A DNA stretch of 64,000 nucleotides. It comes from Tubulanus polymorphus. Taxonomy: Eukaryota; Nemertea; Palaeonemertea; Tubulaniformes; Tubulanidae. The translations under genes were made by a program, and so were the position numbers. Positions 19,901 to 22,900 of this stretch are shown here, in pieces (position 1 is the stretch's first letter; every line of letters starts with the position of its first letter). The notes beneath the pieces were generated by a model. The model was given only the letters and a program-made list of their open reading frames with translations. It was not told the DNA's origin and did not search any database. Location of the stretch: NCBI RefSeq assembly GCF_964204645.1, contig NC_134035.1, positions 9,362,501 to 9,426,500 on the forward strand, given 5' to 3'.

Positions 19901-22900
19901 ACATGGCGCCTTATGCAAATGATGACGTCAAGACGCGCGTACGAATATAAGCGTTTGTTGAGGTTTGTTTATGAAACGAGACAAGAAAACAATATGTATT
20001 AACGACAGCGCGACAGAACATGAAGACGACGGCAATTGATGCTACGCCTACGCACTCCAAAATAAATTGAGAGCGTGCGCCGTCGCTGAAATAGTTTTAT
20101 ATCTCAACAGGAAGCCATTAATTGAAGAGAATACCTGTCTCAGGCGAGTAGAGGCGCCAAATAAACGGAACGTTATTGTACTGTCTCAGTTAAAGCCTTT
20201 GATAAGAGCTGATAATCCGATCTATTGATAGAACGGTTCCTTCATATTTTGATGGACATTTTAGCGTCATTTGGTCTATTTCCACAACTAAATAAGATTA
20301 AATGAAGGGGACACACAATTTGAATTGAATTATACGATAGAATTTCTGTCCGGGATGAAACCAAACTTTATCGAAACGAAATCACAACGTTTCGGCTGTT
20401 GACTAACAGCCATCATCAGTTGGAATGAATGTTAGTCAACAACTGAAACGTGGTTTCGTTTCAATAAATTCTATTATAACAACAGTGTACACGGATTAGA
20501 GTGTTTATTCGACTACTGAAGAAAAATGAAATAATTCTTTCCTTACTTATGTTGAAGAAATTAATGATATCTGTTTCTATAGCTGAGGTTTTTTTATCAA
20601 GAATCGCATGATAGAAAAAACATTATTCATATTGTATACGTATAAACGTGTGGCTTATTATGATATGATATATACGGTAGGGATCCCAACGCTGGTTACA
20701 GGTAGTCACAGGACGGTTAATTATTGCGCTTATGAATTCAGCTTGCGTCGTTTGTTTGTCGAAATGGCGTGGAAGCGATTGCCGCCGGCTCAATCTTTCA
20801 GAGACTCGGCACTTCCTGGCAGAATGTTAACAGTGGATTGGCATATACGTGGACAAATACAAAATTCATTAAATCCGCTAAACTTTCTCTCTCGCATTCT
20901 GTTTAACGCTTTCGACGGAGAATGTCAGATATGTGGAGCGTGCTTTAAACCATCGGCTGCTGGTTGGAACCTACGAGCAATCATCTCAAGATGATTGCTC
21001 GTATAGTTGGAACGAAGGCCAGGCTGACTAGGGTAGCGAGGAACAGAGGCAAGGGGCTAGCTTCCGGATACCTACCGGGTTACACAACGCCTTAGCCTGC
21101 AGGGGCCAGTCGCAAAATCAAAACCAAGACCAGTCTAAGACCGTCTTAGTTCTACGCCAATCTAACAACGACCAGTAAAGACCAGTAGACCAGTCTAAGG
21201 ACCACTTCTAGACTTATTTAAAGACTGTGCAACTGTACCCTAGACTTGAACCAGGTACGTAATATTCATTTCAAAACTTAAGATTGGGCTTCACCTCCCG
21301 AATCGCGAATTTGGAACCTTTTTACACTGAAGAGTACTTATGGTAAGGGGCAGGCGTTGTTGGCTGATTACGTTTGATTTGCAAAGGCTTCGTACGCCTC
21401 AGCTCAATGACGCGAACGATATGGCTTCTTGTGCGGTTGTTTTTATAATGGTACTAATAGGCGGGATGTGAAGGTTATTAGGAAACGCGTTCGCATACAC
21501 AGCGCTATTACCGATTGCATCTCGTTAGTCGTCATTAGAAGCGACGTCAATTAATTCTTTTTACCCGGTAGCCTTCCTTTTTGCCTCGTACGTTTATTCC
21601 AATATCGATATCAAACTGACGTTGAGATTAATGGATGCGGATTGTACAGAGGCTTGTCGACCGGGAATGCTCAGCTGTTGGGGATTCGCGCTATCATTGC
21701 ATGTAAAACTCTGTTGGTAGAGTTGAAGTTTGTCGATGCATTAGTGAGAATCCGGCTCAACAACCGACAACTCAACAGTCATCGTTTCGTTGTCTTTGAC
21801 TTGATCAATTTTCATTCTTCTAATGTTTTGTCATGCTTAGAGATGTCACCGATTCCGAGAATTCTAATCTATTTTTAGACTGGATTAAGATCATTGAACG
21901 GATGTTTCTATTAGTTAGGCCAATTAAACATGTGACCAGTGTCACCCATCACTTGGTACAATGATAAAACCAATCCTATACCCGTTTGCACAGCTAAGTG
22001 ATCTCATTTCTGAAGTTTTAACTTTAGCGTCGAATTGTATTCAAGAACTTTGTAACCACAGGTCCGATGGGCTATTGGCCCTGAAACATTGGTCTCATGA
22101 TAAGCACAGTCTTAATATGTTAGTGCATTTTGGATGCCTTTTATTGTGATTGTTGACTGCAAAAGTAAAGCTGAAAAGATGAGCATGAATCGATCTAAGT
22201 AAAATACCATCATTTCGAAGATACGATTTTCTAGAGAAAAGTGCAGTTCAGATAGGCCTGTGATAAGCTTCGAATTGAATGTAATAGGTCAAAGCGGTTA
22301 TCAGTTGTTGTTGCGGGTTTCTGTAATAGCCGACACCATTAGCCAGAGGGTAAGCTCTCGCCCTCTCGCCGTATACCAGGGGATATCTAGAATCGAATCG
22401 GTCGGGATGATTTCTGAGTGAAAAAAACATCCCTTCGGCCAAAATAATTCCAGCGTGTAATCGAGTGACCGTTGATCAACGCGAAATGTGATTGGATCCA
22501 TATCAATCGATAGAGACGAAAATTAGAAAAGCGACGTATAATGCAAAGAAGCTTGGAAGTCGCGCCGTCATAACAAATTCTCCATTTCATAATGATAATG
22601 AGATCTCAACTTTTGTTGAGCTCAACAACAATAAACACTTAACCCGGACCTTTCATCTTACTCTCCCTGGGGAGATTGTAGTTCCCGATGCACTCCAGCG
22701 ATACAATCTGTCCAGTAGCAAATGTGAATTGATGCCTTGCCTGGGCACTACAGAACAACCGGGGTTCGAACACGCCCACGCTCCACAAATTTCATAAATG
22801 ATTTGGAAATACTTCTCAAATACGCGAGTTACCCGAGGGTCGTCTTGTCCTTCGGAAATGCGGTGTTATAGCCGCGAGACGTATTTCAATGGTGTCTTTT

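Follow-up and report, generated by a model that had tools for sequence, protein, structure and literature searches.

The repeated foldbacks in a 64,000-nucleotide stretch of Tubulanus polymorphus DNA (the window; C11:9362501-9426500 of a 267.8-Mb assembly, which the genome-wide pattern counts below cover) are very probably decayed relics of Penelope-like retroelements (PLEs) that carry a hammerhead motif (probability about 0.92). The motif has the layout of a minimal type I hammerhead. In families A and E, which have intact open reading frames (ORFs), it stands 3′ of an ORF with reverse transcriptase (RT) and GIY-YIG domains and, at the one tandem junction read, at the start of the pseudo-long terminal repeat (pseudo-LTR, pLTR). 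In many copies, two units meet head-to-head no more than about 30 nt upstream of the motif. The original prediction, made from the letters of the window, had described hammerhead-like cores (CTGANGA, a pairing stem, GAAA) at five loci and had proposed that the foldbacks may be inverted terminal pieces of PLEs.

The layout was read from intact copies outside the window, both near it and elsewhere in the genome. It comprises stem I, CUGANGA, an extra base, stem II, GAAA, a self-complementary tetranucleotide, NUH and stem I again. Stem I directly flanks the core and differs among families: UUAUUC/GAAUAA in family A (5.6, 16.5, 18 and 37.7 kb of the window), CCAC/GUGG in B (20.4 kb), ACAC/GUGU in D (38.9 kb; relatives L170-L172), CGC/GCG in E (absent from the window) and UAGA/UCUA in F (13.3 kb). 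The contiguous stem I is just 0–2 bp in 4 of 18 distinct copies, and a scan confined to the window found no adjacent stem I in three copies with an intact core. NUH is GUU, GUC or AUU in intact copies. Helix III forms no hairpin and consists of a loop-less tetranucleotide between GAA and the H of the cleavage triplet, which could pair between two RNAs. This tetranucleotide is ACGU in families A, B, D, E and H and AUAU in F; it is AGCU in the single L129 family, where the register is less sure. The third conserved part of a hammerhead, which the original prediction found clear in no copy, is plain in the intact relatives outside the window, as stem I, NUH and a loop-less helix III. The AUCG-UGU-CGAU stem that had been offered as its nearest candidate at 38.9 kb is not the missing part; stem I of family D is ACAC/GUGU. 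Loop II keeps AG (UAG in 24 and CAG in 7 of 33 distinct sequences), with UAG in six families and CAG in one. Scans that permitted zero or one base between A9 and stem II showed an extra base there, mostly T and also A or C, in every copy found. As a separate observation, L129 holds a further hammerhead-like family (GCTTCTA..TAGAAGC, GAAAGCTC) in two nearby copies of the same orientation (L129:160-214 and L129:397-435).

The pattern CTGANGATG-N8-26-CGAAACGTY has 3,476 exact matches in the genome (1,743 + 1,733), and the reversed control pattern has 0. The stem II test took 100 listed of these 3,476 matches, which comprise 42 distinct sequences, and used every one of their 33 distinct 34-mers. 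The proportion of paired cells was 91.9% versus 68.2% in shuffled sequences, and the covariation was 0.733 versus 0.296 (0/500 for both). Five of the six pairs changed on both sides, the sixth being fixed by the search pattern. Stem I formed 3.56 of 5 pairs versus 2.56 when shuffled (0/2000; 18 distinct copies). In nine chosen copies, stems I and II together had 97.8% of cells paired and 9 of 10 pairs changed on both sides; this test leans towards structure because the copies, 9 of the 18 distinct ones, were chosen for having both stems visible (the L129 copy was omitted also for its length). Compensatory changes, which had been named as a mark of RNA-level selection, are therefore present in both stems, and the covarying stems together with the NUH site bear out the hammerhead-like core. 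Most cores contain ATG, and the motif might instead be conserved for coding a peptide: CTGANGATG puts an ATG at A9, and the ORF of the lizard element PAc begins at stem II, according to the available part of its description (PMC11167929). In family A that ATG opens MTIRI-stop; reads by hand gave MANSL-stop, an 11-letter peptide in B and MISRVRSKRR in D. The first ATG of the long frame in L169 lies 140 nt past the core start, and stem II changes on both sides. No common peptide runs across the families, and the coding explanation, which is contradicted for families A and E, was rejected as having next to no chance of being right.

The link to PLEs is given by the ORFs beside intact copies. A GIY-YIG search, in which 150 of 306 candidates were scored, placed 17 of the 150 in open frames of 817–841 aa, several of which lie in tandem at a spacing of about 2.86 kb or form opposed pairs. 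The motif was present in 15 of 20 fetched GIY-YIG loci, which are not all independent (L162 and L163 overlap), and in 14 of the 15 it was 3′ of the domain on the same strand. The two ORFs examined for families A and E (in L158 and L168) contain RVT_1 and GIY-YIG, each as a single ORF with GIY-YIG in the C-terminal part, and the PLE reverse transcriptase for which a search next to intact copies had been suggested is found there. At the one tandem junction read (L169), the motif follows the stop of one ORF by 319 nt, and the next long frame has its first ATG 140 nt farther on. Because intact family A and E copies adjoin RVT_1/GIY-YIG ORFs, both in tandem and head-to-head, the foldbacks are taken as PLE pieces. 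Family F (13.3 kb) has GIY-YIG above the cut-off beside the motif in L160 and L167. An RT plus GIY-YIG ORF was seen only in A and E, and the link to a complete PLE ORF is therefore direct for these two families only; among the window elements it is firm for family A and partial for those at 13.3 kb (F) and 20.4 kb (B). Families C and D, candidate PLE relics, share only the layout and the head-to-head form with the others, and D also has a target-site duplication (TSD).

The pseudo-LTR continues after the motif with TTCGGAC, TGTGGGATTCTC and an ACAC..GTGT hairpin, and the foldback arms at 5.6, 16.5 and 18 kb are made of copies of this sequence. pLTRs were found in both tandem and inverted orientation. 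Among the 100 listed matches, neighbouring motifs within 5 kb formed 20 pairs, 16 head-to-head, 1 tail-to-tail and 3 on the same strand. A head-to-head junction pattern with a spacer of 1–30 nt matched the genome 390 times versus 1 for the control. In 41 of the 50 junctions listed among these 390, from which spacer lengths and stem I remnants were taken, the last four stem I bases of a family survive on at least one side, and the spacers resemble what is left of the handful of bases that precede the core. The proposed inverted arrangement of PLE pieces holds, and the "inverted terminal pieces" are more exactly described as a pair of pseudo-LTRs whose 5′ ends are joined shortly upstream of the motif. 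Two ORF-less foldbacks, L170 and L172 (294 and 225 bp), are flanked by 14- and 12-bp TSDs, and their arms differ by 33 and 40 nt.

Two other origins of the foldbacks were weighed. The first is that they are foldbacks of DNA transposons, that is, miniature inverted-repeat transposable elements (MITEs), with a central hairpin that is hammerhead-like by chance. The arms do resemble terminal inverted repeats, an apparent hAT-like MITE lies in the window (5323-5497), Rfam below its cut-offs returns mainly microRNA (miRNA)-like hairpins, and families C (23.5 kb) and D (38.9 kb) have no tied PLE ORF. However, the core positions left unpaired (CUGANGA, GAAA, UH) stay conserved between families even as both stems covary, two of the families have these same units next to RT/GIY-YIG ORFs, and the two arms end at different points (33 and 40 nt), unlike terminal inverted repeats. 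A chance or MITE origin was rejected on these grounds as extremely improbable. The second, which is compatible with a PLE origin, is a snap-back in which stem I lets a cDNA end prime itself, so that the motif would serve second-strand priming. The inverted arm does meet the core at stem I at 5.6, 16.5 and 38.9 kb, but the strict junction, searched genome-wide for family A only, gave 0 exact and 3 one-mismatch cases among 108 within three mismatches, whereas the 390 short-spacer junctions are common. The rarity of the strict junction in family A largely refutes snap-back as the general route to foldbacks, and we consider this role of the motif improbable.

In the window, the motif stands well above chance. 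When a stem of 5 bp or more is required it has 5 sites there, one of them (54.6 kb) doubtful, versus 0.51 for each first-order Markov sequence, with no more than 4 in any of 100. Under a stricter definition, exact-core sites numbered 3 versus 0.1 (maximum 2 in 60 second-order sequences). All five cited CTGANGA..GAAA loci are present where they had been placed. A covariance model trained on nine copies, all outside the window, recovered these five together with copies at 5.6, 18.4, 18.6 and, weakly, 13.3 kb. The E-values were 1.7e-12 (20.4 kb), 1.2e-10 (5.6 kb), 3.9e-9 (18.4 kb), 2.7e-4 (37.7 kb), 3.6e-4 (18.6 kb), 7.3e-4 (23.5 kb) and 7.7e-4 (38.9 kb, core and stem II only). Those at 13.3 kb (0.013) and 23.4 kb on the minus strand (0.017) are weak, since the tool itself calls such E-values rough. 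The same model on 230 kb of other sequence from this genome gave 18 places at E≤1, 2 of which were training copies. The eroded forms predicted at 5.6 and 18.6 kb are real, the latter extending over 18.4–18.6 kb. Copies at 13.27 and 16.57 kb come in addition to the loci named before; the model missed the one at 16.5 kb.

Several results weigh against the PLE hammerhead interpretation. With its extra base after A9, the core differs from the canonical one. Rfam hammerhead families, scanned at gathering and loose thresholds, matched neither the window (E up to 10) nor 10 loci with intact copies, although Rfam can say little about a motif in which helix III is missing; with a hammerhead model as the check, then, nothing scanned matched Rfam, and the model built from the element's own copies did match. 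Two of the five stem II measures were not above shuffles, namely the number of pairs changed on both sides (5 versus 4.8) and the further pair types (10 versus 11.4). A clear motif was lacking in 5 of the 20 GIY-YIG loci, the doubtful L150 being counted among them. The RVT_1 match in L160 is an 18.3-bit fragment (cut-off 29.6). In L166 (family B), GIY-YIG is above the cut-off but the motif precedes it on the 5′ side by 1.3 kb, and a domain scan found no RT. The PLE ORF link of families C and D is missing. No Pfam domain, RT and GIY-YIG included, was above its cut-off in 10 window ORFs and two of the six frames of 16.0–31.0 kb. A TSD longer than 7 bp was found in one of the nine window elements tested, the 13.27 kb copy.

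Hammerhead-like RNAs were also seen in IMG/VR contigs, as an observation apart from the PLEs. Those of L106, L097, L092, L087, L081, L070, L093, L103, L108 and L017 have stems I–III and share an extra U after A9, for example CCCGU-CUGAUGA-U-GGCUGG..CCAGCC-GAAA-..-ACGGG. They were judged by eye among 16 of the 120 stretches obtained with a pattern that demanded the T, and two pairs are near-identical. A gathering-threshold Rfam scan of 13 IMG/VR contigs (L017 excluded) found no hammerhead.

The elements of the window are listed in Table 1.

Table 1. Foldback elements of the window and the repeat inserted in one of them.
Feature	Position	Strand	Details
Family A foldback	5562..5764	-	one eroded motif, 5651-5622 (-); fold z -9.0
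Family F copy, eroded motif	13255..13371	+	11-bp direct repeat TAGTACTCGAT at 13244-13254 and 13372-13382
Family A foldback	16464..16653	+	core GACGA..GAAATGTC at 16572-16587; fold z -8.8
Family A foldback	18230..18727	.	model matches 18330-18422 (-) and 18618-18661 (+)
PLE pseudo-LTR foldback, family B	20367..20517	-	motif 20419-20390 (-): CTGATGA-T-GGCTGTT..AACAGCC-GAAA-CGTT
Head-to-head pair, family C	23333..23557	.	motifs 23474-23504 (+) and 23412-23386 (-, stem II damaged)
Single family A pLTR fragment	37703..37768	+	motif 37704-37733; match spans 37703-37733
Pseudo-LTR foldback, family D	38851..39203	-	motif 38967-38938 (-)
Later insertion, GGGGCCGGTTCC..GGAACTGGGCCC repeat	38968..39105	.	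81-87% to both halves of 26877-27127; also 30.4 kb

The 20.4 kb element is 96% identical over 50 nt to an intact copy in L137, and its pLTR tail matches at 20482-20517 (89%). Its motif has the perfect 7-bp stem that had been claimed, between CTGATGA plus T and GAAA; the opposite-strand copy begins within loop II, and the stem I bases are gone. The pairing stem between CTGANGA and GAAA stands at four of the five cited loci. It fails at 23412-23386 (-), where stem II is broken, because the fold there is no better than shuffles (z +1.4). The plus-strand partner of this motif has CTGACGA, T, 7 contiguous pairs (computed) and GAAA; a palindromic spacer separates the two, the arms end in AAAAACCCAC / GTGGGTTTTT, and a UUCC/GGAA stem I appears in the fold, with a mismatch at the base of stem I. 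The fragment at 37.7 kb has a 6-bp stem, and the bases following GAAA, including NUH and the 3′ strand of stem I, are deleted; its part past 37733 was assigned by eye. At 38.9 kb, the motif has a 6-bp stem (one G-U) and two unpaired bases ahead of GAAA. A 138-bp repeat lies directly 5′ of this core, a later insert that splits the 5′ strand of stem I from it. This repeat belongs to a second inverted-repeat family with GGGGCCGGTTCC-like ends (26877-27127, 30390-30523, 38968-39105 and 21126-21244), one copy of which interrupts the 38.9 kb element.

Among the family A foldbacks, the 5.6 kb element has a damaged core and an inverted arm that joins at stem I, and stem II is almost lost in the 16.5 kb element. 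The 18 kb foldback has at its centre an array built of 64-bp palindromic units (CAGTATTCCTGAAGATGACTATTAGAAT and its complement), and 3′ motif halves at either end. The array (18364-18641) holds 4–5 units, each palindromic and built from the 5′ half of the motif, and is apparently a small satellite born inside a PLE foldback. A foldback at 16111-16294 has GAAACGTC, GAAAAGTT and then inverted AGATTCTCTC arms; it has no CTGANGA and is perhaps an eroded relative. All window copies are most likely inactive relics, which makes self-cleavage in the window unlikely, and the ribozyme here is most likely dead. For the motif in general, judged from its sequence, self-cleavage is a candidate activity.

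Minimal type I hammerhead motifs of PLEs were reportedly described by Cervera and De la Pena in 2014. In the available parts of the papers, on which the following comparisons also rest, PLE hammerheads are described as "minimal", without helix III (PMC6155905, PMC7229834). The present motif shares with them CUGANGA, stem II, GAAA, NUH, stem I and the lack of helix III, as well as its site in the pLTR and its thousands of copies per genome. It is unlike them in the extra base after A9 (which PAc may share, as suggested by the position of the PAc ATG), in the AG kept in loop II and in a helix III tetranucleotide that is self-complementary in at least two versions. In Adineta vaga PLEs, the adjacent inverted pLTR is 37 bp shorter, with palindromes at the junction and TSDs of 8–10 bp (PMC3846280). 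The elements here are likewise endonuclease-containing PLEs whose pLTRs occur in direct and inverted orientation, with one pLTR tens of bp shorter than the other, palindromes at the head-to-head junction and TSDs. They are unlike those of Adineta vaga in that some copies consist of two head-to-head pLTRs alone (two with a 12–14 bp TSD); the word hammerhead occurs nowhere in the Adineta vaga paper. PAc (Poseidon, Anolis carolinensis) has the hammerhead at the pLTR/ORF border and an internal RT start in an AC-rich stem loop (PMC11167929). The RT plus GIY-YIG ORF, the tandem copies, the border position of the hammerhead and the AC-rich stem loop near the RT start are shared with it, whereas the first ATG of the long frame is in stem II in PAc and 140 nt past the core start in family A. 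Protein-assisted cleavage has been shown for PAc only (PMC11167929).

Retrozyme-like non-autonomous elements with canonical type I hammerheads would also account for short copies without a PLE ORF. Animal retrozymes also carry type I hammerheads and no ORF (PMC7229834), and short ORF-less copies with TSDs occur here (L170, L172). However, helix III is lacking here just as it is in PLEs, the motif is also found beside PLE ORFs, and the copies are mostly head-to-head pairs rather than head-to-tail tandem repeats of 150–450 bp. We regard a retrozyme origin as very improbable. The ORF-less foldbacks of 225 and 294 bp may also form a non-autonomous class of their own, moved in trans by the PLE protein, with hammerheads that act only between two RNAs. 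Action between two RNAs is suggested because the self-complementary tetranucleotide varies by family (ACGU, AUAU and perhaps AGCU) and could not be used by a single RNA; the retention of AG in loop II is cited alongside. This idea is tentative, and we think it unlikely. Published work already covers PLE hammerheads, their occurrence in large numbers and inverted pLTRs. Among the papers listed on inverted, head-to-head, palindromic or non-autonomous PLE hammerheads, we recognised no description of ORF-less head-to-head hammerhead foldbacks.

The decayed PLE foldbacks probably arose as follows. Transcription would start just upstream of the motif. Reverse transcription would begin at an internal site close to the 3′ end of the pseudo-LTR and in many cases run off early. 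Two 5′ ends would be joined, giving short ORF-less head-to-head foldbacks that then decay, and the window loci would be such foldbacks. Cleavage, if any, would occur after NUH, probably as a dimer or with the help of a protein, and would separate tandem units or trim the 5′ leader.

Other structures were noted in the window. The foldback at 5323-5497 is near-perfect, has CACAGGGGCTC ends and an 8-bp direct repeat GCTTCATT on either side, and is a hAT-type MITE by appearance. A palindrome at 52696-52972 has 136-bp arms that are 99% complementary, with 5 nt between them. Two tRNA genes (44704-44775 and 46221-46292) lie inside a 75-bp repeat that is 98.7% identical.

The results carry two warnings: none of the copies scanned was caught by the Rfam hammerhead models, and foldbacks of this kind can pass for MITEs or miRNA precursors. 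The 3,476 exact matches form a dense set of PLE hammerheads in one genome, with four abundant stem II types among the 100 listed matches. With this set, the role of the PLE ribozyme becomes testable through junctions, 5′ ends and compensatory changes.

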